From NCBI GenBank assembly GCA_003141715.1, contig PLNF01000078.1:7011-62955 (forward strand): a stretch of 55,945 nt of DNA, in the 5' to 3' direction. This document shows, piece after piece, positions 5,751 to 55,644 of this stretch. Made by a program: the position numbers and the translations under genes. The DNA is from Bacteroidales bacterium. Its GTDB lineage: Bacteria; Bacteroidota; Bacteroidia; Bacteroidales; VadinHA17. Positions within the stretch are counted from its first letter, which is position 1. Each line of letters opens with the position of its first letter. The notes beneath the pieces were generated by a model. It had not been told where the DNA came from. It made no database searches and saw nothing but the letters and a program-made list of their open reading frames with translations.

Positions 5751-7355
5751 TTATTTCATTATCTCCTGAAGGTGCTTGATTGTAACTTCCTTTAAATGCC
5801 TTTTTGCTTCATTAATCTTTACGGAATCTGTCTCTAAATCAATGTAATTCTGCCAAAGATCTATGCTCCTGGTTATCTTTCCGGCAGCTTCGTATGCTTT
5901 TGCCAGGTACAGGTTTGTTTCAGGTTCCTCAGGCTTGATTTTATTTGAAAGTTCAAGATATTTCAGGGCCGAATCAGGTTGTTCCTGCATTAAATAGGCG
6001 TTGCCAAGATTTCGATACACAAGGTAAATATACTTCGATCCAGGATATTGCTCCCTGGCCTTATTCAGGATTAATATTGCTTCAATTGGCTGATCCATTG
6101 AATTATATAAATTACCCAGTGCACTACATGAGCGAACATAAACCGTATCGGTGTGGAATGTGGAATCTATCTTAATTGCTTCCTTGTACCAGTGAATTGC
6201 CTGTTTATAGTCTTTCTTGTCATGCAGGGCAAAAGCCATGTTATATGCTGCCCCGCTATTTTTGGGATCATATCCTATAGCCTTAATGGTTTGCATCAGC
6301 GCCTGATTTAAATCGCCCTGTTTATAACTTAATACAGCCAAAGAACTCCACGCATACGAGTATTTTGGATCGCTTGAAAATGCAAGGTCCAGTTCTGCTT
6401 TTGCAGCCTCAAACTCTTTATTATCGATATAAACTATTGATTTTTTGACATGAGATCTTGCAACTTCTCTTTTAGAGTTACCAGCACCTAAAAAGCCGAA
6501 CGGGCCTTTCCTGCCAAATGCTAAGACAACCATTAAAGCGATAAACAAAATTGAAAAGATGTACTTATAATTGTTTTTAATCCAATAACCGCCCTGTTTT
6601 TGTAGCCAACCGGTGTCTTTTTTCTGAATTTTCCCCTTAGTTTGTGGTTGAAGACCCGATGGATTATGACTTTCATCCCCAATAAGAATGTCTGTATTTT
6701 TTTGGTCCATGGATTCAATTAATGACCAGTTTTCTACATGAGATGTTTTCCGGATACTTTTTAAGCTTCCTATAAGCTCATCAATGGCATTTGCTACTTT
6801 GTTGATCTGGTCGCGATAGTAAACTTTATTCAGATTATCGAGAGGACGGTCTTCGCTGGCTCTTAATGGTCTGTTGACGCCGACAGATTTATAAATAAAA
6901 TCAACTCCGCGAAGTGCTCCTCCCAGTACCATTTCAAACAACTTAATATCAGAAATATCCGGCTCGTGAATCCGAACAGGAAGTACACGGCTAGCCACAT
7001 TCCCATTTGGTAATGGTATCTTCAATCCAAACTGATCATGGGAGCTTTGTCCAATAAATGCTTTAAACTCATGTTCCCATGCAAATGATTTTGGATCACA
7101 ATAGGTTCGTGAAATAACCGGAATAAAAATAAGACATTTAAGCTTCTCTTTCAGGGAGGCATCAACATCGTGTGTCTCTAAAAGTCCATCATGATGGTCA
7201 ATGTCAAAATAGACACTGATCTCTTCTTTAAAAGTTGCCCCCAGTTCCCGCTTCAGATTGTCAACAAATTCAGTTACCCAACCATCATATTTATTGTCCT
7301 TCTGGCGGTAGCTTATGAAGATGTCGTATTCATAACCCGGAATTATACTTGCCAT
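5751..7355 (-). CDS. TIR domain protein with transmembrane segment and C-terminal TPR repeats (copy 1)
   Basis: N-term YDIFISYRQKDNKYDGWVTEFVDNLKREL...VYFD...FIPVISRTYCDPKSFAWEHEFKAF (TIR). TM 'YIFSILFIALMVVLAFG'. Repeated TPR-like units (AYNMAFALHDKKDYKQAIHWYKEAIKID). Confidence 0.9.
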   Translation of the reverse strand: MASIIPGYEYDIFISYRQKDNKYDGWVTEFVDNLKRELGATFKEEISVYFDIDHHDGLLETHDVDASLKEKLKCLIFIPVISRTYCDPKSFAWEHEFKAFIGQSSHDQFGLKIPLPNGNVASRVLPVRIHEPDISDIKLFEMVLGGALRGVDFIYKSVGVNRPLRASEDRPLDNLNKVYYRDQINKVANAIDELIGSLKSIRKTSHVENWSLIESMDQKNTDILIGDESHNPSGLQPQTKGKIQKKDTGWLQKQGGYWIKNNYKYIFSILFIALMVVLAFGRKGPFGFLGAGNSKREVARSHVKKSIVYIDNKEFEAAKAELDLAFSSDPKYSYAWSSLAVLSYKQGDLNQALMQTIKAIGYDPKNSGAAYNMAFALHDKKDYKQAIHWYKEAIKIDSTFHTDTVYVRSCSALGNLYNSMDQPIEAILILNKAREQYPGSKYIYLVYRNLGNAYLMQEQPDSALKYLELSNKIKPEEPETNLYLAKAYEAAGKITRSIDLWQNYIDLETDSVKINEAKRHLKEVTIKHLQEIMK

Positions 7356-7405
7356 AGTGCAAGAAAATTTTACATAGTTTTTCGTAATTAGCTATCCGTC
7401 GCTCC

Positions 7406-9298
7406 TTATATCCTGATTCCAATAACCAGAATATCATCGGTCTGCTCTTCATTATTTTCTTCTCTCCACTGCTCGATCTCTTCGTATAACCTGTCACTTT
7501 GTTCAAGCATAGAACATTCCCGGAGATTAAGTAGAAAATTCATTAATCTTTTTCTCTGATATTTCTTATGATGCTTCCCGCCAAATTGATCGGCATAACC
7601 ATCTGAACATAAATAAATTATATCGCCTGAATTTAGCTGTATTTTCTCCGATGCGAACATACATTCCTCATCTTCACTGGAATCCTCAGGAAGGCTTTTA
7701 GACTGATATTCAATCAGTTCACCTTTTGTAATTCGGTATAACGAATTCTTAACTCCGGAGTATGAAAGGACATTATTCCTCGTATCCAGAATACAAAGAA
7801 CGATGTCCATATCATCCGAAATACCTGTTCCATCCGAATCATTTCGCATAAACCGGTGTATTTTGGAGTATAAATTATGTAAAATATAAGATGGTTCAGT
7901 CAGTCTTATTTCATTCACAGCCTGGTCAAGAATACCATAACCTAATATACTCAGCAGTGCCCCGGGAATCCCATGTCCGGTAGAATCCGCCACAGCAAAT
8001 ATTATCAGATGCTCCCGTTTACTGAAAAAATAGAAATCACCGCTTACAATGTCTTTTGGTTTAAACAGGACAAAACTGTCAGGGAAACATTCCCTGATAT
8101 AAAGATCATCAGGTAAAAAAGTCTCCTGGATATGCTGTGCATAATTATAGCTGCCCTCTACCTCATTGATAGCCTCTTCAATCTTATTATTCCTGATCCT
8201 TATCATTTCCTCTATCTCAGGAGTCCACGTAGCCAGTTTTCTGATCTGATCATTTAATTCCCTGGTTTCATCTAATATTTTGTGTATGCTGCTCTGAGGT
8301 TTTATTGCGTATGATAATTTTTTAATCCTGTTGGGTGAAACAGGAAAGGCTTCATAGTCAATATCCTGTAGGAAAGAGGGGATTAGTTTCACAAGTTCGC
8401 GGTCCTTTTCTTTCTCTGATTCACTCAACTCTTCATATGATATTAAGCTTGGGTGTGTTTTCTTAATATCATCTTTTATACTACCGAAAGTCCAGCCATT
8501 TAATCTCTTCTCCCAACTCCACCTGATATGTTCTACTCTGGCCATGGTTTCAATTTCTTCCTGGTTCAGATGAAGAGCAAAAGGTTTAAAGCCTTTTTTA
8601 ACCTGCCTGATCTTATATCCGATTGATAATAATTTTGTTGGAATATGTGCTGCATTGTCTATGTTAGAGTATTTTATATCGTCAGGCAGATCATCAAAAC
8701 CGGAGGTATATTGATTTCCAGAATTATAAAAAATGTAATTATTTGCCTTTATGTTTTGGTTTCTAATCTCATGCAAATACATGGAGTGAATAGCCCTGGC
8801 AAGTTTTTTAATCATTAACATGTTAATCTCAACAACCTCCTCTTGCCGGATAACTTCATACCCTATCTTTTTAAGCTCGACAGGGATTAAATAATTAAGT
8901 TCCATGCAGAATTTCTGCTGGTCTTTAATTGTACTTTGAAAGGATTTATGAGAAATGATATTGTCATGATCCCTTTGTGCAAGTTTTGTAACCTCATCGT
9001 CGGTTATAATACATGTCCTGCAAAAATCTTCAAAAGGACGTATGAAAAGATTTAAGGTTCTGAATTTATCCGGTATTTCTGCTGTATAGTCATACCAGAA
9101 TGATTTTTCAGCTTTTGTGAGGTTTTTAAATTCTTTATTGAGAGTAGAAGAAAATGTCATTGGAGAACCTGATTCCTTAATATCCTGATAAAGACTTTCT
9201 GCAATCGGGTAAACAAAAAGTTTCTTATACATTTTCTTATCAGGAAACATGTTCTGAGATAACTGATTATCGGTATTATATGTAATTTTTGAACACAT
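7406..9298 (-). CDS. RyR-domain protein fused to SpoIIE/PP2C-type serine phosphatase
   Basis: MARVEHIRWSWEKRLNGWTFG is RyR-like. C-terminal SpoIIE motifs VSGDFYFF, VADSTGHGIPGALLSILG, LCSDGYADQFGG, TDDILVIGI. Confidence 0.85.
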   Translation of the reverse strand: MCSKITYNTDNQLSQNMFPDKKMYKKLFVYPIAESLYQDIKESGSPMTFSSTLNKEFKNLTKAEKSFWYDYTAEIPDKFRTLNLFIRPFEDFCRTCIITDDEVTKLAQRDHDNIISHKSFQSTIKDQQKFCMELNYLIPVELKKIGYEVIRQEEVVEINMLMIKKLARAIHSMYLHEIRNQNIKANNYIFYNSGNQYTSGFDDLPDDIKYSNIDNAAHIPTKLLSIGYKIRQVKKGFKPFALHLNQEEIETMARVEHIRWSWEKRLNGWTFGSIKDDIKKTHPSLISYEELSESEKEKDRELVKLIPSFLQDIDYEAFPVSPNRIKKLSYAIKPQSSIHKILDETRELNDQIRKLATWTPEIEEMIRIRNNKIEEAINEVEGSYNYAQHIQETFLPDDLYIRECFPDSFVLFKPKDIVSGDFYFFSKREHLIIFAVADSTGHGIPGALLSILGYGILDQAVNEIRLTEPSYILHNLYSKIHRFMRNDSDGTGISDDMDIVLCILDTRNNVLSYSGVKNSLYRITKGELIEYQSKSLPEDSSEDEECMFASEKIQLNSGDIIYLCSDGYADQFGGKHHKKYQRKRLMNFLLNLRECSMLEQSDRLYEEIEQWREENNEEQTDDILVIGIRI

Positions 9299-9367
9299 TT
9301 GGATACCTGTTTTTCTACCTGATTATTTAAGTACCATAACAAATTACATAAGATGCTTGTAGAGATA

Positions 9368-10279
9368 TTAATTTATCTCTGACTCTACATATTCAAAAGG
9401 AAATTTTACAATACTCGACATCTCTTTCCCGACCTCCAGCATATCTCCATCTTCTTTTTCATAATACCATTTTACTATTATATTAATTCCCTTTAAACGT
9501 AAACCGGCTAAAACCTTGCAAATATCAAGAATTAACTTACCCGAGGATGAATTAAAATATTCAAAATCAAAGTTAAACTCAACCGGATCTTTTTTATCGT
9601 CCGATTTGATAAGATATAAGCTGAATTCTGCCAGCCATGAGAGAATCTGGTCGTAAAACTCCCTGACATCAGGAGGCCTTGATTCACCTGAAATCAGGTA
9701 AATTTTTTTTTCAGGATCAAGAATGACCTTTGGTGAAAAGGATGTTTGGTCAATTATCAACTTTCTCATGATATATTTATTTAAAGAAATTTTTATTTCA
9801 AAATTTGAATAGCCATTAATCAGAGGTTGAAAGCTGTAACCAATTTTATTCCCTGATTTCATAGCCATATAAATAAAACCGAGCCCGGCTCCATTTTCAC
9901 CCCGAACAGATTCTCTGTTAATTTTATGTTCGTACAAAGTTTTCAGAGCTGCTTCATTGAGGTTATTTAAGTGGTCAAGCCTTCTTGTTAAGTTCTCTTT
10001 TGCACTATCCGGTACCGGATTACCGGCAACAATATATATCTTGTCATTTTCCGTCCTGACTGAAATATGGGAATTCATTCCCGGATCAGCCGATGATAGC
10101 ACTATCTGGTTTTTATAAATATTTTCAAGACACTCAACAACAATAGCATAAACCCTTTTACAGGTTATCTTATTCAAAAATGTAAACTCCTTTGTTTTCC
10201 TGAGTCTTTTTAAAAGTAGTTCTATTACCTTTAAATCAACCGGGCCATGATAATCCAGAAGAATTTCTGATTCGGACAT
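9368..10279 (-). CDS. SiaB-like (DUF6272, GHKL-like kinase) fused to SiaC-like (DUF1987) regulatory phosphoprotein domain
   Basis: N-term with CLENIYKN and ENGAGLGFIYMAM (GHKL-like). C-term 'ISGESRPPDVREFYDQILSWL...FNFDFEYFNSSSGKLILDI' (DUF1987). Start placed at MSESEILLDYHG (CAT at 10277-10279) rather than the ORF-track start at 10330. Confidence 0.75.
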   Translation of the reverse strand: MSESEILLDYHGPVDLKVIELLLKRLRKTKEFTFLNKITCKRVYAIVVECLENIYKNQIVLSSADPGMNSHISVRTENDKIYIVAGNPVPDSAKENLTRRLDHLNNLNEAALKTLYEHKINRESVRGENGAGLGFIYMAMKSGNKIGYSFQPLINGYSNFEIKISLNKYIMRKLIIDQTSFSPKVILDPEKKIYLISGESRPPDVREFYDQILSWLAEFSLYLIKSDDKKDPVEFNFDFEYFNSSSGKLILDICKVLAGLRLKGINIIVKWYYEKEDGDMLEVGKEMSSIVKFPFEYVESEIN

Positions 10280-10455
10280 ATAATAAATCTTAATCCTGTG
10301 CACAGAGAATAGACAATTCCCGGTAAACAAACCGAGACATTAAAATTCTTCAATACGATGAAAATGTTTTTCTATATGCGTTATTATTACTAACTTGAAT
10401 TGCTTTAAGCAAAGATATATTTTATTCATTAAAGATTATTAACAATTTTAATGCT

Positions 10456-13400
10456 ATGATTGAGACAATTTTAAAAGCACTAGTACAATTATTTGCGTTA
10501 ATAAGCGACGTTCACGATATTTCTGAGATCTCAAGCAAGGAGAAGGATATCGTAAGGATATTTCTGTCACGTCAGCTGAATAATGAACTGGTAAACAGAT
10601 ACATGGAAATGTTCGATGAGTATTTAATACAGTACAATTCGGAAAAAATTGACAGGGGAAGTATTAAAGACATGAAACGTACATCCCTCACTGCTGTCAA
10701 AATTTTAGGGATATGCGAAAAGATAAATGAAGAGTTACAGCAAAAACAGAAGTTGTACGTAATAGTCCAGCTTATGGATTTTATATTATTCGGTGCTGAA
10801 ATAACCGAAAATGAGCTGGAGTTTCTTGAAACTGTATCAATAGCCTTTAATATACCACAGACAGAGTTTCAGAACATAAGAAGTTTCATATTGAAATCTG
10901 TGAATGATATCCCTGAGAAAAACAGGGTAATGATCATAAACAGCACTTATGAAAATGAGTACATAGGGATGAAACATTTGTTCAGGGAAAATCTCAAAGA
11001 CAGTATTTTACTGCTTCATATTGAAAGCACCAATACATTTATTTTAAAATACTCAGGTAAAGAAGATCTCTTCCTGAACGGGCAGAATATATTTTCCGGG
11101 CAGACTTATACTTTTGATCACGGCTCGACAATCCGGGGCTCAGGTACGAATACAATCTATTACAATGATATTTCAAGCATTTTCACTGATGAAACATTTA
11201 AACTTAAAATATCGATTGATGCCATTGATGTTTACCTGAGGTTTAAGAACAGTGAATATGGAATTCAGAAGTTCAATTTTCATGAAGAATCAGGTAACCT
11301 TGTAGGAATTTTAGGTGGGAGCGGTGTTGGTAAGACAACCCTTTTAAATGTTTTAAGCGGTATTACTCAGCCCCAGAGCGGTGAAGTGCTGATAAACGGG
11401 TATAATCTCTATTCCGAAGAAGAAAAGATCCACTTGAAAGGGTTCATTGGTTTTGTCCCGCAGGATGATCTGCTGATTGAAGAACTTACCGTCTGGCAGA
11501 ATCTTTATTACAGTGCAAGAATGTGTCTCGATAACCTTCCTGAAGCTAAACTGGTGGATGTTGTGAATAAGACTCTTTCAGAACTGGACCTTGATGAGAT
11601 CAGAAATCTGAAAGTTGGCAACAGCCTTAATAAAGTAATAAGTGGCGGACAAAGAAAAAGATTAAACATTGCTCTGGAATTAATCCGCGAACCGACAATA
11701 CTCTTTGTTGATGAACCCACATCAGGACTTTCTTCTGTTGACTCTGAAATTGTAATGAATTTACTTAAAGAACAGACAGACAGGGGGAAACTGGTAATTA
11801 TTAATATACATCAGCCTGGTTCCGACCTTTACAAAATGTTTGATAAGATTATGATCATCGACAAAGGAGGATATCAGATATTTTATGGCAATCCTTCAGA
11901 AGCAATTGTATATTTTAAAACAAGGGCCAGTTATGCGAATGCGCATGAAGACCAATGTATTACATGTGGAAATATAAACTCTGATCAGTTACTTCAGATT
12001 ATAGAAGCCAAAGTCATCAACGAGAATGGAAAACATACTCACTTAAGAAAAGTTTCCCCTCAGGAATGGGCTAAAATGTTTATGGGAGATGCTGATAAAG
12101 CAAACCAAAAAACCTTTAACAAGTACAGTACTCTCCCTGAAAATTATTACAGCATTCCCGGTCTTATAAAACAGTCAAAGATTTTTTTTATCCGTGATTT
12201 TTTATCCAAATTGACGAATAGGCAATATGTCATGATTAGCCTGCTTGGAGCGCCTCTGCTGGCTTTTCTGCTGGCATATTTTACTAAATATACCATTGGT
12301 GGAGAATACATTTTCAGCGAAAATGAAAATCTGCCGGCATATCTTTTTATGTGTGTAATTACCTCTCTCTTCCTGGGATTAATAATCAGTGCTGAAGAGA
12401 TTGTCAAAGACAGGAAGATATTGAAAAGGGAGTCATTTCTGAATCTCAGCTGGTTCAGCTACCTGAATTCGAAGGTTATGATAATGTTTTTAATATCAGC
12501 AATTCAGACAATCTCATTCATTCTGATTGGCAATTTCATTCTGGAGATTAAAGGCATGACTATTCCATACTGGATTGTACTATTTACAACATCCTGTTTT
12601 GCGAATATGCTTGGGTTGAACATTTCATCGGCATTCACCTCAGTAATAACAATTTATATACTGATACCGTTCATTCTTATACCCCAGTTATTATTCAGCG
12701 GTGTTATTGTAAAATTCGACAGGCTGCATAAAAACAATCTCTCTTCTTACGAATATGTTCCCATTATCGGGGAAATGATGACTGCACGCTGGTCGTTTGA
12801 AGCCCTGGCAGTCGAACAATTTAAAAACAATAAATATGAAAGGAATTTTTTCAAATACAATTTGGAAATAAGCCAGAATGACTGGTACTCAGTATTCCTT
12901 ATAAATGCCCTTAAAGTTGACCTGAGGGTGTGTACGGTGCTTAAGGATAGTTTACCATACAGACAAACAGTAAATAATGATTTTTATAAACTTAATTATT
13001 ATATCGAAAAGCTGAATGGATTAGCAGGTTTTGGATTAATCCGCGGAAACTGGAAAGAATCTCTTAAAGCTGAAAATTTTAATCCTGAGGCAGCGAAAGA
13101 AGCAGGAAAATATCTTGACAGTTTAACCAGACAGTTCCGGCAGGTTCGAAAAACATACAAGGACAGAAAAGATTCGGTTTCCAGATTTATTGAGGCAAAA
13201 ATCGGGGAAGATGAGTTTATAAAACTAAAAAACAATTATTATAATAAACAATTGGAGATTGTTGTTTTGGACAGATTAAGAGTTGAACAATTTATAGAAA
13301 CAGATAAGAGAATAATTCAGAAATGTGAGCCAGGCTATATGAAACCTCTTTCAAAATATGGTCGGGCACAGTTTTATGCGCCATATAAACAGATCGGGAA

Positions 13401-13542
13401 TACTAAAATTGACACATTCTGGTTCAATCTGATGGTTTTATGGATTGTAACTTTAATTTTATATATTGCCCTGTATTATAATCTTTTACAAAAGTTGGTA
13501 ACCATTTTTGAGAATTTTAAGCTAAAGGAATCAGTTAAGTAA
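10456..13542 (+). CDS. ABCG-type ABC transporter (fused ATPase and membrane domain) with N-terminal TerB-like and FHA-like region
   Basis: Walker A GGSGVGKTTLLNVLSG, signature VISGGQRKRLNIALELI, Walker B ILFVDEPTSGLSS, ABC2-type TM helices. N-terminal ~150 aa helical TerB-like. 'DLFLNGQNIFSGQTYTFDHGSTIRG' FHA-like. Confidence 0.85.
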   Translation: MIETILKALVQLFALISDVHDISEISSKEKDIVRIFLSRQLNNELVNRYMEMFDEYLIQYNSEKIDRGSIKDMKRTSLTAVKILGICEKINEELQQKQKLYVIVQLMDFILFGAEITENELEFLETVSIAFNIPQTEFQNIRSFILKSVNDIPEKNRVMIINSTYENEYIGMKHLFRENLKDSILLLHIESTNTFILKYSGKEDLFLNGQNIFSGQTYTFDHGSTIRGSGTNTIYYNDISSIFTDETFKLKISIDAIDVYLRFKNSEYGIQKFNFHEESGNLVGILGGSGVGKTTLLNVLSGITQPQSGEVLINGYNLYSEEEKIHLKGFIGFVPQDDLLIEELTVWQNLYYSARMCLDNLPEAKLVDVVNKTLSELDLDEIRNLKVGNSLNKVISGGQRKRLNIALELIREPTILFVDEPTSGLSSVDSEIVMNLLKEQTDRGKLVIINIHQPGSDLYKMFDKIMIIDKGGYQIFYGNPSEAIVYFKTRASYANAHEDQCITCGNINSDQLLQIIEAKVINENGKHTHLRKVSPQEWAKMFMGDADKANQKTFNKYSTLPENYYSIPGLIKQSKIFFIRDFLSKLTNRQYVMISLLGAPLLAFLLAYFTKYTIGGEYIFSENENLPAYLFMCVITSLFLGLIISAEEIVKDRKILKRESFLNLSWFSYLNSKVMIMFLISAIQTISFILIGNFILEIKGMTIPYWIVLFTTSCFANMLGLNISSAFTSVITIYILIPFILIPQLLFSGVIVKFDRLHKNNLSSYEYVPIIGEMMTARWSFEALAVEQFKNNKYERNFFKYNLEISQNDWYSVFLINALKVDLRVCTVLKDSLPYRQTVNNDFYKLNYYIEKLNGLAGFGLIRGNWKESLKAENFNPEAAKEAGKYLDSLTRQFRQVRKTYKDRKDSVSRFIEAKIGEDEFIKLKNNYYNKQLEIVVLDRLRVEQFIETDKRIIQKCEPGYMKPLSKYGRAQFYAPYKQIGNTKIDTFWFNLMVLWIVTLILYIALYYNLLQKLVTIFENFKLKESVK

Positions 13543-39740: not shown

Positions 39741-42700
39741 ATGAGAGATAAGTTACGTACTCTCCTTCAAATTGAATCAGGAGAGGAGTCAATGGTATCA
39801 ATGCTTCTGACACAATCGGTCTTTCTGGGGATTTTTATCGGAGCATTTGATATTGCTGCACATTCCCTTTTACTCTCGACTTTTGACGAAAAAATGATGG
39901 CACGGGGATATGTTTTTTCCGGGATTGCCGGCATTATCCTTACATCACTTTATTCACGGTTCCTTACAAGATTACAATTCAAAAACTTCGCAATCATTAA
40001 CCTTATTGTTGTTACAGTACTGACACTTTTCCTTTGGTCTGCAATGATTTTTTCACCGGCAAAATGGATAATATTCATGGTGTTCATGATGTTTGGACCT
40101 CTGAATATTCTGGCACTGTTCGGCTTTTGGGGAACTGCAGAACGGTTGTTTACAGGTAAACAGGGAAAAAGATTGTTCCGGCTCGCCGATACAGGACTGA
40201 TCGTCGGAATAATTATTATTTCTTTCGCCATTCCGGTAATAATGTCTTTTAAATTTCATTCACACACCATTTTATTTGTAAGTGCATCTTCCGTATTTAT
40301 TGCGACCATTATCCAGAGTGTGATCGGGAAACAGTTAAGTCTGGCTGCTATTGACGGGGAGCAATATGCTGAAAAACCTGAAAAGAGAAAATCTCTTTTT
40401 GTTGTTTTACGTGAAGACCCTTATATCAGAACTATAGCCATTTTTGCATCTCTTTCGGTTTTAACTGCATTTTTCATACAGTATTCATTCATGGCAATTA
40501 CAAGAGAACAATATCCTGTAGCAGAAGATATGGCCGGTTTTCTGGGCCTTTTCACCGGCAGCATGATGATCTTCATCCTGTTTGTTAAACTGGTTGTCTT
40601 TCCATATGTTCTTCGTAACTACGGACTTCGAACCTGTCTTATAACTTCACCGGTACTTATTGCTGTTTTTACAGCAATAGTAATACTCACTGGTTTGTTC
40701 ATGGGTTATAGCCCTGAAGCATCAGGCGGATTTATGTTATTCTTCCTTCTTCTTGCATTTAGCAGGCTCATTTCAAAATCTCTGAAAGACTCAGTAGAAT
40801 TTTCTTCTTTTAGAGTCATTTATCAATCAATTGATAAAAAAGTAAAATCAGGGATCCAGTCTGGAATGGTTGGTACCGTGAATGAAATGGCGGTATTCTT
40901 TTCGGGACTTATCCTGACGGGCCTTGGTCTTTTTAGCTTTATTAAGCTTATTCACTTTTCATTGTTCCAGTTTATTATTGTCTTAATATGGCTTTTTGTT
41001 GCTCTCAGGTTATTTAGGGAGTACAGAAAATCAATTGTAAAAGCAACGGAAATAACGGCTATGGAAGGATCAGTAGCCAATATTTCAAATAAACAGGATA
41101 CTTTAAAAAACAGATTTTCTGCTTATATAAACTTCAGAACAGATTATTTTAGTCTTTTATCGGGTGATTTTTCAGTTTTGAACAGAATCAGGAATAGTTG
41201 GTATTTTGAAGAAATAATTGATTACGCCTACTCGAAAAAGGATATAAATCTTTTACCGGTTCTGAAAAAAACTGCAATTAATACCGACCTTGATGAAGGA
41301 GTCAGACAGCACTCCGCTGAGGTAGTCGAGATTCTGCAACAGCATTCGACTTTTCTTGAGTCTGATAATGAAAAGATTAGCAAAGCAAAAAAAGTCCTTT
41401 CGGGTTCCAGGATGCCTGAAACAACAGAAATTCTCAGACTTTTAAGAGATAACTCTATTGAATCCAAAAAACTGGCAATTTACATGATTGGTAAATTCAG
41501 GTTAACTGACTTAATATCAGAAGTATGTGGATGTCTGAGTATCCCCGATTTGAAAAATGATGCTTATGAAGTTCTAAAGACCTTTGGCTCGGGTGCAAAG
41601 GATGAATTAGTAAGGTTTTATCTACTCACATCAGGAAATACAAAGTTAAGCAAAACAATATTGCATCTTTTAGGTAAAACATGTACAAAGGAGACTGTAG
41701 CATTCCTGTTTTCCCGACTCTGGTCAAATTCAAGACAGCTAAAGGAGATTGCCGTTAAATGTCTTATTGACTGTAAGTTCAGCCCATCTGAAGAGGAGAA
41801 GCAACGCCTTCATCAACTAATTTCTGAAGTTATTGGTTTAATTACCTGGAATCTTTCAGCAAAAGTCTCTCTTGAAAGAGATAATGATAATTTCCTTCTC
41901 GATAAAATTAACCGGGAAATAGACAGGTGGAATACGTTTCTTTTTAATCTGCTTTCAATAACTTATGATTCAGGTTCTATAGCCAGGATCAGGGAAAATT
42001 TTGGTATTGAAACCATGGAGAGTGTCACTTACGCGCTTGAAATGACAGATATAGTAGTTTCTGATTTAATAAAACCAAAGTTGATTTCTCTTCTTGATGT
42101 TGTTCCGGATGAGGATAAAGTAATAAATCTATTTCAATTCTTTCCTGGAGAAATTCTACCACGTAAAAAACTTCTTGAAGACATAATTAATTGCGATTAT
42201 AATCTCATAAGTCTATGGACTAAGGCATGTGCGTTGAGGATTATTAAAAATATTGAAGGTGATGATATGGCTGAATCTGTGACCGCTCTTCTTTTCAGTC
42301 CGGAAGAATTGATTCAGGAAGAGTCCGCGAACCTGATTGCACGGTCAAAGCCTGAGCTCTACATCTCAGTTTCTCAGAGAATACCTGGTTCAATAAAAAC
42401 GCGACTGGATAAAATAATAAATGGGACCACAGCTAAAGAAGAATTCCTTTATGAGAAGGTTCAATTCCTCTCAAAGTATTTTGGAGTAATTACAGAAGAT
42501 GAGTTGTTGTCATTAGCCTGTGATATGAAGTATATTAAAAACTTTGATAGCATCTCCATCCAATCTTCCGGAGGTTGCATCATTTGGCCTATAAACGGCG
42601 ACAATGGGAGTAATGAAGTTCATGTGGTTTACAGCGGAGAGATAGAAAGACTGACCCGGAAATATCAAAGTCGGTACAATCTCTCTTTTTACTTTTTACC

Positions 42701-42785
42701 TCTAAGTGCAGTTGAAGAATATCATTTTCAGTTCCCCGACCATTCATTTGAGATTTTAAAATATATAGATAATAACGAGGAATAA
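39741..42785 (+). CDS. NTT/MFS-like multi-TM protein with HEAT-like helical region and degenerate cNMP-binding-like C-terminus
   Basis: N-terminal ~430 aa about 12 hydrophobic segments (SVFLGIFIGAFDIAAHSLLLSTF...). C-terminal ~550 aa soluble alpha-helical repeats. End 'FYFLPLSAVEEYHFQFPDHSFEILKYI' resembles a cNMP-domain tail. Confidence 0.55.
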   Translation: MRDKLRTLLQIESGEESMVSMLLTQSVFLGIFIGAFDIAAHSLLLSTFDEKMMARGYVFSGIAGIILTSLYSRFLTRLQFKNFAIINLIVVTVLTLFLWSAMIFSPAKWIIFMVFMMFGPLNILALFGFWGTAERLFTGKQGKRLFRLADTGLIVGIIIISFAIPVIMSFKFHSHTILFVSASSVFIATIIQSVIGKQLSLAAIDGEQYAEKPEKRKSLFVVLREDPYIRTIAIFASLSVLTAFFIQYSFMAITREQYPVAEDMAGFLGLFTGSMMIFILFVKLVVFPYVLRNYGLRTCLITSPVLIAVFTAIVILTGLFMGYSPEASGGFMLFFLLLAFSRLISKSLKDSVEFSSFRVIYQSIDKKVKSGIQSGMVGTVNEMAVFFSGLILTGLGLFSFIKLIHFSLFQFIIVLIWLFVALRLFREYRKSIVKATEITAMEGSVANISNKQDTLKNRFSAYINFRTDYFSLLSGDFSVLNRIRNSWYFEEIIDYAYSKKDINLLPVLKKTAINTDLDEGVRQHSAEVVEILQQHSTFLESDNEKISKAKKVLSGSRMPETTEILRLLRDNSIESKKLAIYMIGKFRLTDLISEVCGCLSIPDLKNDAYEVLKTFGSGAKDELVRFYLLTSGNTKLSKTILHLLGKTCTKETVAFLFSRLWSNSRQLKEIAVKCLIDCKFSPSEEEKQRLHQLISEVIGLITWNLSAKVSLERDNDNFLLDKINREIDRWNTFLFNLLSITYDSGSIARIRENFGIETMESVTYALEMTDIVVSDLIKPKLISLLDVVPDEDKVINLFQFFPGEILPRKKLLEDIINCDYNLISLWTKACALRIIKNIEGDDMAESVTALLFSPEELIQEESANLIARSKPELYISVSQRIPGSIKTRLDKIINGTTAKEEFLYEKVQFLSKYFGVITEDELLSLACDMKYIKNFDSISIQSSGGCIIWPINGDNGSNEVHVVYSGEIERLTRKYQSRYNLSFYFLPLSAVEEYHFQFPDHSFEILKYIDNNEE

Positions 42786-45700
42786 TGCGAACTCAAACGA
42801 TCAAAGATTGCAATCCCTTCCCCGGACTAAGACCCTTTACTACTGAAGATAGCGATCTGTTCTTCGGACGGGAAGCTGAATGTGATGAGGTAATCTTAAG
42901 ATTACTTAAAAACAGGTATATAACTGTTATTGGTGCTTCAGGAAGCGGCAAATCATCACTTATCTATGCCGGAGTCCTTCCAAAAATCATGAATTTAAAA
43001 ATCAGGGAATCCTCCATCTGGAAGATTATTTCTTTCAGACCCGGGAACGACCCGTTCGGAAATCTGGCTGGAGCATTATCAAATGGGATTATTGACTCAG
43101 GGCAGACAAGAATTGAACGAGAGATAATTCTTTCTGATTTTCTCGATAACCCTGGTAGTTTTTCTGATGTCCTAAGGAAACACATGATTAGACATGATGA
43201 CAATGTCCTTCTGGTTATTGATCAGCTTGAAGAACTTTTCAGATACTTTTCACCCGGAAAATCTGAAATTTCTCATGCAACTGCAATAAAATTTGTTGAT
43301 TTTCTGGTAAACTCCATCATAAAGTCTGACGAAAATGTTTTTATAATTGTTACGATGCGTTCTGAATACCTGGGAGAATGTTCACATTACAAGAGTCTCA
43401 CCAGGCTGGTCAACAACAGCAATTATCTTGTTCCTGAGATGGGGAAGGAAAGTTGGAGAAAAGTTATTGAGGGGCCTGTAAATTTTGCCGGAGCAAAAAT
43501 TGACCCGGAACTTATCGAAACACTTCTAAATGACATCAAAGACCGGACTGATCAGCTTCCTGTTTTGCAACACGCCATGATGAGGACATGGGAACACTGG
43601 CAGGAGCTTGATCAACCTGACAAACCAATTACCATAGCAGATTATGACTTAGTTGGTACAGTTAATAATGCTGTTTCACTCCATGCGGATGAGGTTTATG
43701 AAGAACTAAGCCAGCACGGAAAAGAGATCTGCGCGATATTATTTAAAACTATTACGAGGAAAGGTTCAGATAATAAAGGTTTACGGCATCCTTCAGATAT
43801 TGAAACGATAAAGTCAATTGCCGGGTGTTCAGATGAAGAATTATTTGATATTATTGAAAAGTTCAGGAGCGCATCACGATCCTTTGTCACACCACGGGAG
43901 GATATCATTCTGAGTAATAGCTCTGTAATAGACCTTCAGAACGAATGTACTATCCGTTTGTGGGATCGCCTGAAGGATTGGATAGATAATGAAGATTATT
44001 CAATGCAGATGTATTTACGGATATCAGAAGCATCTGCTCTTTATCATCAAGGGAAGACCAGTTTATACAGACCCCCTGACCTGCAACTCGCAATAAACTG
44101 GCGCGATCAGTATAATCCAACGCTCTCATGGGCAGTTCAATACAATCCTGCTTTTGAAAGGGCAATGGTTTACCTTCGGACCAGCGAAAAAGCATATCTC
44201 GAAGAGGAACAAAATAAAATCAGACAGCAGAAAAGGAAAGTGAAGAGGACCAGGTTTATTACAAGGGTTCTTGGAATTGCCTTTTTATTATCTGTAGGAT
44301 TCATGCTCTTTGAATATGTTCAGAAGTCAACTGTTGAAAGGCAGTCCATTCTTGCAGAAAAACAAAGGATCCAGGCTGTCAAGGAAAAAGCGATAGCTGA
44401 TTCGTTTGCTATTATTGTTATTAAACATAAGATTATTTCAGATTCAACTGCCTCTGCTGCCATAAAGAATGCTGAAGAGGCAAAGGAGCAGAAAATTGTT
44501 GCAGACCTTCAGAAATCTTTTGCTGAAAGAAATGCTAAAGAGGCATTGCGTCAAAAAAATCTTGCCGTTGAACAAAAAAATGGAGCCCAGCGCCTGAGGA
44601 TGCTGTCTATTGGTAAGTCAATGTCACTTAAATCGTTGCAGATGACAGGCCAAAAAGACCTGCAGACACTTCTGGCTTATCAGGCCTATCTGTTTAATAA
44701 AAGGAATAACGGACCTGATAATGATGCCGATATTTATGCCGGTTTGTACAATGTTGCTCTCCAGTATGGTAGTATTAACTTTAAGTCCTTCAAAGGGCAT
44801 AATGGAGAAATTAAGAGTATAGCATTTGTACCCGGAAAAAACGAATTTTTTACTTCGGGGAATGATGGAAAGGTACTGAAATGGTCACTTGAGAAAAAAG
44901 ATCAGACACTTCAGGTCATTTATTCAGGAAGCGATATTATCGAGGTTTTGGCCGTCAGTCCTGATGCTTCCTGGCTTGCATGTGGGAGTTCAAACTCCTC
45001 TATAAAGATGATCCCATTAAAAGGGAACGATCCTGGATATGAGATGACGGGTCACAAGGGAGGAATTAAATCACTTATCTTTTCATATGACGGGAAATAC
45101 CTCTATTCAGCGGCGCTCGATGGGAAGGTGCTCAAATGGGACATTGCTGCGAGGACAAGTGTTAATGTTTCTACAGGCTTGATGGAGATAACTTCAATTG
45201 ATATCTCCTCAAAAGGGAATTATCTTGCCGGTATCAGTGCCGATGGTAATGTTGTTGTTTGGAATCCCGGACAAAACTCAGATAATTTCAGAATCGAGAC
45301 GGCCGAGAAAAATATTAAAGTGGTTAAGTTCAATCCCGAAAACAACCTTCTCGCAATAGGTGATGCTGATGGCACTGTCGAACTATGGGATATTGACCTT
45401 CATAAAAAACTTTCAGAGGTGAAAGCCCATAGTGGACAGGTTAATGATATTCAGTTTAATACATCCCTGAAGCAGATGGCGACAGCAGGTAATGACAAAA
45501 AACTGAAAATATTTAATATTGAAGATCCAACCGACCTGACAGAACCACCGGTTACATTATCCGATAATGAAGGATTTGTCCTGGTAATGCAATTCAGTCC
45601 CGACGGCCAGATGATCGTATCCGGAGAATCAGGTGGAGGGAATAACCTTATCAGAAGACCTTCGCATGTTGACTATCTGGTTCATGATATATGCAATATG

Positions 45701-45844
45701 GTCTCAAGGAACATGACTCAGGAAGAGTGGAATGTATATGTTGGAAAGGATATACCTCTGGAAAAGACCTGCCAGAATAAGAATTTTAATATTAAAGTAG
45801 AACCGATAACATCGATAAACAAATATAGAAACATTAACAGATAA
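42785..45844 (+). CDS. nSTAND1-like NTPase with TM segment, coiled coil and WD40 repeats
   Basis: NPFPGLRPFTTEDSDLFFGREAECDEVILRLL, Walker A GASGSGKSSLIYAG, Walker B VLLVIDQLEELF; TM 'VLGIAFLLSVGFMLF'; WD40 units (GHNGEIKSIAFVPGKNEFFTSGNDGKVLKWS etc.). Confidence 0.9.
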   Translation: MRTQTIKDCNPFPGLRPFTTEDSDLFFGREAECDEVILRLLKNRYITVIGASGSGKSSLIYAGVLPKIMNLKIRESSIWKIISFRPGNDPFGNLAGALSNGIIDSGQTRIEREIILSDFLDNPGSFSDVLRKHMIRHDDNVLLVIDQLEELFRYFSPGKSEISHATAIKFVDFLVNSIIKSDENVFIIVTMRSEYLGECSHYKSLTRLVNNSNYLVPEMGKESWRKVIEGPVNFAGAKIDPELIETLLNDIKDRTDQLPVLQHAMMRTWEHWQELDQPDKPITIADYDLVGTVNNAVSLHADEVYEELSQHGKEICAILFKTITRKGSDNKGLRHPSDIETIKSIAGCSDEELFDIIEKFRSASRSFVTPREDIILSNSSVIDLQNECTIRLWDRLKDWIDNEDYSMQMYLRISEASALYHQGKTSLYRPPDLQLAINWRDQYNPTLSWAVQYNPAFERAMVYLRTSEKAYLEEEQNKIRQQKRKVKRTRFITRVLGIAFLLSVGFMLFEYVQKSTVERQSILAEKQRIQAVKEKAIADSFAIIVIKHKIISDSTASAAIKNAEEAKEQKIVADLQKSFAERNAKEALRQKNLAVEQKNGAQRLRMLSIGKSMSLKSLQMTGQKDLQTLLAYQAYLFNKRNNGPDNDADIYAGLYNVALQYGSINFKSFKGHNGEIKSIAFVPGKNEFFTSGNDGKVLKWSLEKKDQTLQVIYSGSDIIEVLAVSPDASWLACGSSNSSIKMIPLKGNDPGYEMTGHKGGIKSLIFSYDGKYLYSAALDGKVLKWDIAARTSVNVSTGLMEITSIDISSKGNYLAGISADGNVVVWNPGQNSDNFRIETAEKNIKVVKFNPENNLLAIGDADGTVELWDIDLHKKLSEVKAHSGQVNDIQFNTSLKQMATAGNDKKLKIFNIEDPTDLTEPPVTLSDNEGFVLVMQFSPDGQMIVSGESGGGNNLIRRPSHVDYLVHDICNMVSRNMTQEEWNVYVGKDIPLEKTCQNKNFNIKVEPITSINKYRNINR

Positions 45845-54039: not shown

Positions 54040-55644
54040 TTATTTCACTATCTCCTGAAGATGCCTGATTGTAATTTCCTTTAAATGCTTCTTAGCTTCG
54101 TTAATCTTTACTGTATCAGTCTCTAAATCAATATAATTCTCCCAAAGATCAATGCTCCTGGTGATCTTTCCGGAAGCTTCATAAGCTTTTGCCAGGTATA
54201 GGTTTGTCTCAGGTTCACGAGGTTTTATATTATTTGAAAGTTCAAGATATTTCAGGGCTGAATCAGGTTGTTCCTGCATTAAATAGGCGTTGCCAAGGTT
54301 TTTATACACAAGGTAAATATACTTCGATCCAGGATATTGCTCCCTGGCCTTATTCAGAATTAATATTGCTTCAATTGGCTGATCCATTGAATTATATAAA
54401 TTACCCAGTGCACTACATGCACGAACATAAACCGTATCGCTGTGGAACGTGGAATCTATCTTAATTGCTTCCTTGTACCAGTGAATTGCCTGTTTATAGT
54501 CTTTTTTGTCATGCAGGGCGAAAGCCATGTTATATGCTGCCCCACTATTCTTGGGATCATATCCTATGGCCTTAATGGTTTGCATAAGTGCCTGATTTAA
54601 ATCACCCTGTTTATAACTTAATGCAGCCAGGGAACTCCACGCATAGGAGTATTTGGGATCGCTTGAAAATGCAAGATTAAGTTCTGCTTTTGCAGCCTCA
54701 AGCTCTTTGTTATCGATATATGTTACTGCTTTTTTGACGTGTGATCTTGCAACTTCTCTTTTAGAGTTACCAGCACCTAAAAAGCTGAACGGCCACTTCC
54801 TGCCAAATGCTAAAACAACCATTAAAGCGATGAACAAAATTGAAAAGATGTACTTATAATTGTTTTTAATCCAATAACCGCCCTGTTTATGTAGCCAGCC
54901 GGTGTCTTTTTTCTGAATTTTTCCATTAGTTTGAAATTGAAGGCCTGAGGTTTTATGACTTTCATCCCCAAGAATAATGGCTCTGTTTTTTTGTTCCCCG
55001 GGTTCAATTAATGACCAGCTTTCTGAATGTGAGGTGTTCTGGATTTTTTTTAAGCTTCCTATAAGCTCATCAATGGCATTTGCTACTTTGTTGATCTGGT
55101 CGCGATAGTAAACTTTATTCAGATTATCGAGGGGGCGGTCTTCACTGGCTCTCAATGGTCTGTTGACACCCGCAGATCTATAAATAAAATCAATTCCGCG
55201 AAGTGCTCCTCCAAGAACTGATTCACACAATTTAATATCTGAAATATCCGGCTCATGAATTCGGACAGGAAGTACACGGCTGGCCACATTCCCGTTTGGT
55301 AATGGGATCCTCAATCCAAACTGATCATTGGAGACTTGTTCAATAAATGCTTTAAACTCGTGTTCCCATGCAAAAGATTTGGGATCGCAATAGGTTCTTG
55401 AAATAACCGGAATAAAAACAAGACATTTAAGTTTCTCTTTCAGCGAGGCATCAACATCGTGTGTCTCTAACAGTCCGTCATGCGGGTTGTTATCAAAATA
55501 TACACTTATCTCTTCCTTGAAAGTTGCTTCGAGCTCCCGCTTCAGATTGTCAACAAATTCAGTTACCCAGCCATCATATTTATTGTCCTTCTGACGGTAG
55601 CTGATAAAAATGTCATATGTGTAACCCGGAATAATGCCTGACAT
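54040..55644 (-). CDS. TIR domain protein with transmembrane segment and TPR repeats (copy 2)
   Basis: Same length (534 aa) as the 5751-7355 product and aligns without gaps by eye; same TIR, TM and TPR segments. Confidence 0.9.
   Translation of the reverse strand: MSGIIPGYTYDIFISYRQKDNKYDGWVTEFVDNLKRELEATFKEEISVYFDNNPHDGLLETHDVDASLKEKLKCLVFIPVISRTYCDPKSFAWEHEFKAFIEQVSNDQFGLRIPLPNGNVASRVLPVRIHEPDISDIKLCESVLGGALRGIDFIYRSAGVNRPLRASEDRPLDNLNKVYYRDQINKVANAIDELIGSLKKIQNTSHSESWSLIEPGEQKNRAIILGDESHKTSGLQFQTNGKIQKKDTGWLHKQGGYWIKNNYKYIFSILFIALMVVLAFGRKWPFSFLGAGNSKREVARSHVKKAVTYIDNKELEAAKAELNLAFSSDPKYSYAWSSLAALSYKQGDLNQALMQTIKAIGYDPKNSGAAYNMAFALHDKKDYKQAIHWYKEAIKIDSTFHSDTVYVRACSALGNLYNSMDQPIEAILILNKAREQYPGSKYIYLVYKNLGNAYLMQEQPDSALKYLELSNNIKPREPETNLYLAKAYEASGKITRSIDLWENYIDLETDTVKINEAKKHLKEITIRHLQEIVK

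Follow-up and report, generated by a model that had tools for sequence, protein, structure and literature searches.

A putative RyR-sensor form of a Sia-type switch retained together with TIR proteins in a genus of Bacteroidales

A 55,945-nucleotide stretch of DNA from a Bacteroidales bacterium (VadinHA17; GCA_003141715.1, contig PLNF01000078.1, positions 7,011-62,955 of the forward strand), hereafter the window, carries a cluster of four genes. They encode a TIR-transmembrane-TPR protein, a phosphatase that joins RyR and SpoIIE/PP2C domains (RyR-SpoIIE), a SiaB-SiaC fusion (SiaBC) and, divergently, an ABCG-type ABC transporter. The host group is uncultured peat-bog Bacteroidales. Within it RyR-SpoIIE and the TIR genes share their pattern of retention and loss. 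This pattern suggests a phosphatase that responds to a TIR-made signal and switches a transporter; a functional link between TIR and RyR-SpoIIE is likely. A more specific reading is possible, although we hold it tentatively and as a little short of probable: RyR-SpoIIE, fed by many membrane TIR sensors, would serve in the cell as receptor of the cyclic ADP-ribose (cADPR) signals that they make, with dephosphorylation and transporter control as its output.

Retention and loss of TIR genes and RyR-SpoIIE

Among 62 genomes of the window's genus, with TIR copies called at E<=1e-30, RyR-SpoIIE occurs in 19 and TIR in 28. Every genome with RyR-SpoIIE carries TIR (19/19), against 9 of the 43 without it (Fisher p=1.6e-9). 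The genes are also physically linked. In 13 of 18 genomes the distance from RyR-SpoIIE to a TIR gene is 10 kb or less, where 0.72 genomes would be expected; the expectation uses flank lengths hand-read from contig ends and genomes that are related. The TIR genes so placed are found on either strand, represent different paralogues and at times stand five in succession.

A SiaBC-ABCG locus of the window type is present in 25 genomes. At this locus RyR-SpoIIE is missing in G008, G010, G018, G026 and G029 and truncated to 243 amino acids in G012. No intact TIR was detected in these six genomes, five having no detected TIR at all and G029 a single broken one. On a tree of SiaBC and ABCG the deficiency is scattered and implies at least five independent changes; TIR presence is concordant in five of five independent pairs (four of five if the broken G029 TIR counts).

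These patterns bear on a simpler explanation, in which the locus is an ordinary Sia-type partner switch and the TIR genes are frequent genomic-island neighbours without functional coupling. TIR copies are indeed numerous, up to dozens, and they travel with unrelated genes for DUF4956, CotH-like and metallophosphoesterase proteins, which the locus retains in genomes that have lost RyR and TIR. The genus-wide association and the paired losses are difficult to reconcile with mere neighbourhood, as are G024, G469 and G473, whose only one or two TIR genes are sited at the RyR locus, and the differently built RyR-TIR pairs of other families described below. We regard uncoupled neighbours as quite improbable. 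The connection between TIR and RyR drawn in the original prediction, made from the sequence of the window, gains strong though indirect support from co-occurrence, paired losses, linkage, RyR-TIR neighbours elsewhere and recent work on phage RyR proteins (PMC13232231).

Several observations weigh against a dedicated route from TIR to RyR-SpoIIE. Nine TIR-positive genomes lack the phosphatase; four of these have instead a SLOG-like protein, and the other five have neither. In some genomes SiaBC-ABCG is kept without TIR or RyR, so its output can have other inputs. It is located away from RyR-SpoIIE in G456 and G478, and a SiaC gene was all that was found in G469 and G473. No second genus was found to have the complete module, and PADLOC has no model that fits RyR-SpoIIE, SiaBC or the TIR domain (its matches for the four proteins are generic ABC and TPR models). 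The genomes compared are incomplete metagenome-assembled genomes, and the co-loss test (sign test p 0.06-0.13) relies on a locus tree in place of a genome tree and on only five to six pairs.

The SLOG-like protein has 555 amino acids. Its N-terminus is Rossmann-like, resembles SLOG by eye and matches no Pfam family; several transmembrane helices follow. The protein (examples at L063:698-2365, L066:4012-5676, L207:1331-2995 and L252:8388-10055) occurs in nine genomes of the genus, all of them TIR-positive, often adjoins a TIR gene and is a candidate alternative receptor or effector of the TIR signal. A strict rule that TIR implies RyR was rejected on the nine exceptions above. The rule that TIR implies either RyR or the SLOG-like protein comes closer, yet fails in G029, G460, G461, G471 and G476, which have neither receptor, and is therefore incomplete.

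TIR proteins, the RyR unit and its candidate ligand

The TIR domain named in the original prediction falls below the cut-off of Pfam TIR_2 (E 0.029). Its AlphaFold2 model (predicted local distance difference test score, pLDDT, 85) nevertheless has as its top solved matches the TIR domains of TcpB, plant RPP1, MyD88, SARM1 and BtTir, and on this model the domain has a TIR fold. In an alignment of 20 TIRs E96 is invariant within SxTYCD..W93xxE96, making it the candidate catalytic glutamate. SARM1 E642 lies at W+4 with respect to its tryptophan, E96 at W+3, and the assignment is left as a candidate.

The window genome has 11 TIR copies, and numbers per genome run from one to dozens, with 37 in G032. 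Median identity between the TIR proteins is 66% in the TIR part and 25% in the remainder, the part C-terminal to TIR being hypervariable across the family. A conserved TIR with a variable remainder would be expected if diverse sensors fed one common signal; relaxed constraint on the repeats would give a similar contrast. The window itself holds a second copy about 47 kb from the first, 91% identical in TIR and 89% after it.

Pfam supports the RyR domain that had been proposed for the phosphatase (3.4e-14). The proposal had made no mention of the N-terminus, about residues 18-155, which appears to be a degenerate first RyR repeat and would make the sensor a tandem unit. In the G001 orthologue Pfam recognises two RyR stretches. 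In the AlphaFold2 model for residues 1-343 (pLDDT 81) one helix-strand series occurs twice, and the predicted unit matches crystal structures of human RyR3 Repeat12 over about 190-200 columns. Most orthologues have a degenerate first repeat, in which a CRTC motif (C93, C96; window 9011-9022), a possible redox or metal site, is invariant.

The second repeat retains a recognisable pocket. H257, W260, H282 and D299 are invariant across 17 orthologues, and their spacing (+3, +25, +42) is identical to that of H75, W78, H100 and D117 in RyDEP, a phage anti-Thoeris RyR-domain (PF02026) protein that binds and hydrolyses 2'/3'cADPR (PMC13232231, a 2026 preprint). These four RyDEP residues bind the nucleotide, and H75 and D117 catalyse its cleavage. 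Of eight RyDEP homologues tested, six bind 2'/3'cADPR, and binding is tight; only the founding member cleaves it (PMC13232231). That study, of phage evasion proteins, was the first to show RyR binding of TIR-made cADPR isomers. Since homologues bind without cleaving, the pocket residues speak for binding and need not imply catalysis, and the RyR unit of the phosphatase may bind a cADPR-type nucleotide.

A pocket of this kind could also serve as an eraser or sponge, binding or hydrolysing the TIR signal through the dyad H257/D299 and so ending or buffering the response, with the phosphatase resetting the switch. Both catalytic residues of RyDEP are invariant here at identical spacing; RyDEP is a glycosidase and the other tested phage homologues act as sponges (PMC13232231). 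The dyad residues, however, occur in animal ryanodine receptors too, and highly conserved phage homologues are non-enzymes (PMC13232231). Fusion to PP2C, in the place where SiaA-like proteins usually carry their sensor, suits a receptor better, and an eraser or sponge seems rather unlikely.

A second possibility is that a general adenine nucleotide (ATP, ADP or NAD+) is the ligand of the unit, which would then belong to an energy-responsive switch, the TIRs acting by assembly or NAD+ depletion and sharing only the input. By their titles, RyR3 Repeat12 structures were solved with ATP, ADP and AMP-PCP, and Sia signalling in Pseudomonas responds to carbon availability (PMC7647112). Such a switch would leave unexplained the loss of RyR-SpoIIE where TIR is missing and SiaBC-ABCG kept, unless TIR-driven NAD+ loss were the only relevant input. 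We consider it unlikely.

The predicted phosphoprotein switch and its ABCG partner

The phosphatase, kinase and phosphoprotein of the predicted partner switch are all recognisable at the sequence level. Pfam finds SpoIIE in the phosphatase (3.7e-16), in which the PP2C metal-site residues D421, D438-xTGHG, D566 and D621/D622 are invariant across the 17 orthologues. In the fusion protein Pfam finds SiaB/DUF6272 (2.2e-27) and SiaC (3.4e-29), and NCBIfam SiaB_fam_kinase scores above its cut-off. The prediction had been made to depend on PP2C metal-site and GHKL residues; both sets are present, SiaB keeping the N-box E49..E52-N53 together with GAGLG. The phospho-site position of SiaC is a conserved serine (YFNSSS), as in all RyR-type loci, and is threonine in canonical loci linked to SpoIIE and ABCG. 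The fusion of SiaB to SiaC, predicted for the window and borne out there, is not constant: the two are separate open reading frames (ORFs) in G006, and of the two only SiaC was found in G469 and G473.

The prediction had also cast the ABCG protein as a possible output partner, and gene order outside the genus agrees. Consecutive SpoIIE, SiaB, SiaC and ABCG genes are found in G108, G206 and G244, which belong to another family outside the window's order. SiaB-SiaC also adjoins ABCG in G104, and a paralogous locus of the window genome has this arrangement too; ABCG homologues without SiaBC occur as well. Because the four genes recur together in other families, ABCG is a true partner of the module. 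SpoIIE carries a long sensor in G108, G206 and G244 (HAMP-GAF-PAS in G108, the one scanned), and recurrence of the core with other sensors makes the RyR unit an exchanged sensor. The SpoIIE-SiaB-SiaC-ABCG core is thus an older and wider Bacteroidota module than its RyR version. The prediction had supposed that its genes would recur together beyond close relatives; the full module was seen in a single genus, another family contributing no more than a broken RyR copy, and wider recurrence is limited to its two halves.

Pfam identifies ABC_tran (6e-30) and ABC2_membrane (8e-18) in the transporter. For its N-terminal domain of about 245 amino acids an FHA- and TerB-like character had been suggested. 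FHA found support in no search, Pfam included, and was dropped; TerB similarity is weak (E 0.018), and a profile search against PDB returned nothing.

We propose that one or, usually, many membrane-anchored TIRs with variable C-terminal sensor parts detect stress (the foremost candidate being phage infection) and convert NAD+ into a cADPR-type nucleotide. Binding of this nucleotide to the tandem RyR of the soluble phosphatase would activate PP2C, which would strip the phosphate placed by the SiaB part on Ser244 of the SiaC part. In Pseudomonas dephosphorylated SiaC binds and activates SiaD, and phosphorylation blocks this (PMC7647112, PMC8457831); by analogy with SiaD activation, dephosphorylated SiaC would control the neighbouring ABCG. 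The full chain is plausible, and we see it as evenly poised between right and wrong; a role in defence is a leading guess only. If right, the model would join immune-type nucleotide signalling to partner-switch phosphorylation, a new signalling route with a bearing on the relation of cADPR to animal ryanodine receptors. The locus would be a simple setting in which to ask if RyR Repeat12 domains act as receptors for cADPR, and the RyR-TIR pairing here comes with an enzymatic read-out suited to in vitro assay, the action of PP2C on phospho-SiaC.

Related systems and other features of the window

The locus appears to be a RyR-sensor version of the known Sia-type switch. In common with SiaABCD of Pseudomonas aeruginosa (PMC7647112, PMC8457831) it has PP2C, a SiaB GHKL kinase and SiaC, with their motifs retained. 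It differs in that RyR replaces the sensor region of SiaA, SiaB and SiaC are usually fused and serine stands for Thr68. The diguanylate cyclase SiaD, which the prediction had called absent, has no GGDEF match among the locus proteins, and the ABCG gene is in its place.

Thoeris, which consists of a ThsB TIR and a ThsA effector (SLOG or Macro), likewise pairs TIR with a protein bearing a candidate domain for cADPR-type nucleotides, and a SLOG-like membrane protein also accompanies the TIRs of this genus. The window protein has the TIR fold in its model, but the TIRs here are membrane-anchored, and the receptor domain would be RyR, sited on a protein phosphatase that feeds a kinase/phosphoprotein switch. 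No ThsA-type effector (SIR2-SLOG, Macro-transmembrane or other described type) was found in the four proteins, nor did PADLOC return a Thoeris match. RyDEP (PMC13232231) shares the PF02026 domain and the H/W/H/D pocket; unlike it, the window RyR is of cellular origin, occurs in tandem on a phosphatase and is genetically linked to TIR, and would be a receptor, not an evasion protein. Animal Repeat12 shares the pocket residues and, as predicted here, the tandem two-repeat fold; the window protein lacks a channel and its first repeat is degenerate in most orthologues.

Outside the genus a phylum-wide search for RyR returned only other architectures, together with the stop-broken copy in G057. TrkA/RCK-like RyR proteins adjoin TIR-type genes in G274, G061, G072, G057 and G022, and a RelA/SpoT-RyR protein does so in G005 (the G057 and G005 examples were examined with Pfam and the remainder read by eye). 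RyR-TIR linkage is thus not peculiar to the window locus. Burroughs and Aravind, in Nucleic Acids Research (NAR) in 2015, are said to have proposed prokaryotic RyR domains as sensors of nucleotide-derived signals, with TIR and SLOG in their neighbourhoods, much as at this locus; the linkage seen elsewhere fits that proposal. The RyR-SpoIIE/SiaBC/ABCG arrangement was not found in a literature search that did not extend to their survey.

The broken copy (L198; G057:C180:13415-13743), in another family of the order, is 65-71% identical to the window's RyR. The G057 genome also has TIRs 69-70% identical, which suggests past transfer between families. In G005 (L202:10032-12596 and L202:7354-9975) the RelA/SpoT-RyR protein is accompanied by another RyR protein and by a large protein of TIR type, weakly similar to ThsB; this may be another TIR-RyR system, with a nucleotide-synthase output. 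Plasmid and phage searches found no RyR-SpoIIE, and a scan of genome contigs with the phosphatase as query returned two close relatives only.

The four genes lie where the original prediction had placed them (Table 1). Gaps of 50 and 69 nucleotides separate the three minus-strand genes, and the divergent gap between SiaB-SiaC and ABCG is 176 nucleotides from the ATG start or 125 from the TTG start. A promoter and terminator scan gave promoter-like matches near the shuffled level and was left unused.

Table 1 Features of the locus, in window positions
Feature	Position	Strand	Basis or remark
TIR-transmembrane-TPR protein, 534 aa (amino acids)	5751..7355	-	ORF list, Pfam, AlphaFold2/Foldseek
TIR domain, aa 1-200	6756..7355	-	Alignment of 20; AlphaFold2 pLDDT 85; Foldseek TIR matches
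Single predicted transmembrane helix, aa 263-281	6513..6569	-	Hydropathy maximum 2.08
TPR region, about aa 300-534	5751..6458	-	Pfam
Tandem RyR-SpoIIE/PP2C phosphatase, 630 aa	7406..9298	-	ORF list, Pfam, NCBIfam, closest solved relative
Degenerate first RyR repeat (predicted), about aa 18-155	8834..9247	-	Two Pfam RyR stretches in G001 orthologue; AlphaFold2
Second RyR repeat, aa 160-320	8339..8821	-	H257, W260, H282, D299 invariant in 17 orthologues
SpoIIE/PP2C phosphatase domain	7409..8209	-	Pfam; closest solved relative SiaA (6k4e); motif check
SiaB-SiaC fusion, 303 aa	9368..10279	-	ATG start; TTG-started ORF reaches 10330
SiaB-like GHKL kinase part with E49, N53, GAGLG	9770..10279	-	NCBIfam, alignment, motif check
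SiaC part; Ser244 at place of SiaC phospho-Thr68	9371..9769	-	Alignment, motif check
ABCG-type ABC transporter, 1028 aa	10456..13542	+	ORF list, Pfam
Second TIR-transmembrane-TPR copy, 90% identical over its length	54040..55644	-	ORF list, comparison

A pair of genes for DUF4956 and a 355-amino-acid CotH-like protein (by eye), often with a metallophosphoesterase, recurs near TIR or RyR loci (L064:6783-8479, L240:5301-6777, L252:10089-11807, L256:11968-13650). It is still present in G026 and G008, two genomes that lack both RyR-SpoIIE and a strong TIR. Elsewhere in the window, at 39741-45844 on the plus strand, are adjacent ORFs of 1014 and 1019 amino acids, the second beginning before the first ends. 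Pfam identifies nothing in the first at 1e-10, and the second is nSTAND1-WD40; the pair looks like a separate conflict-type system.
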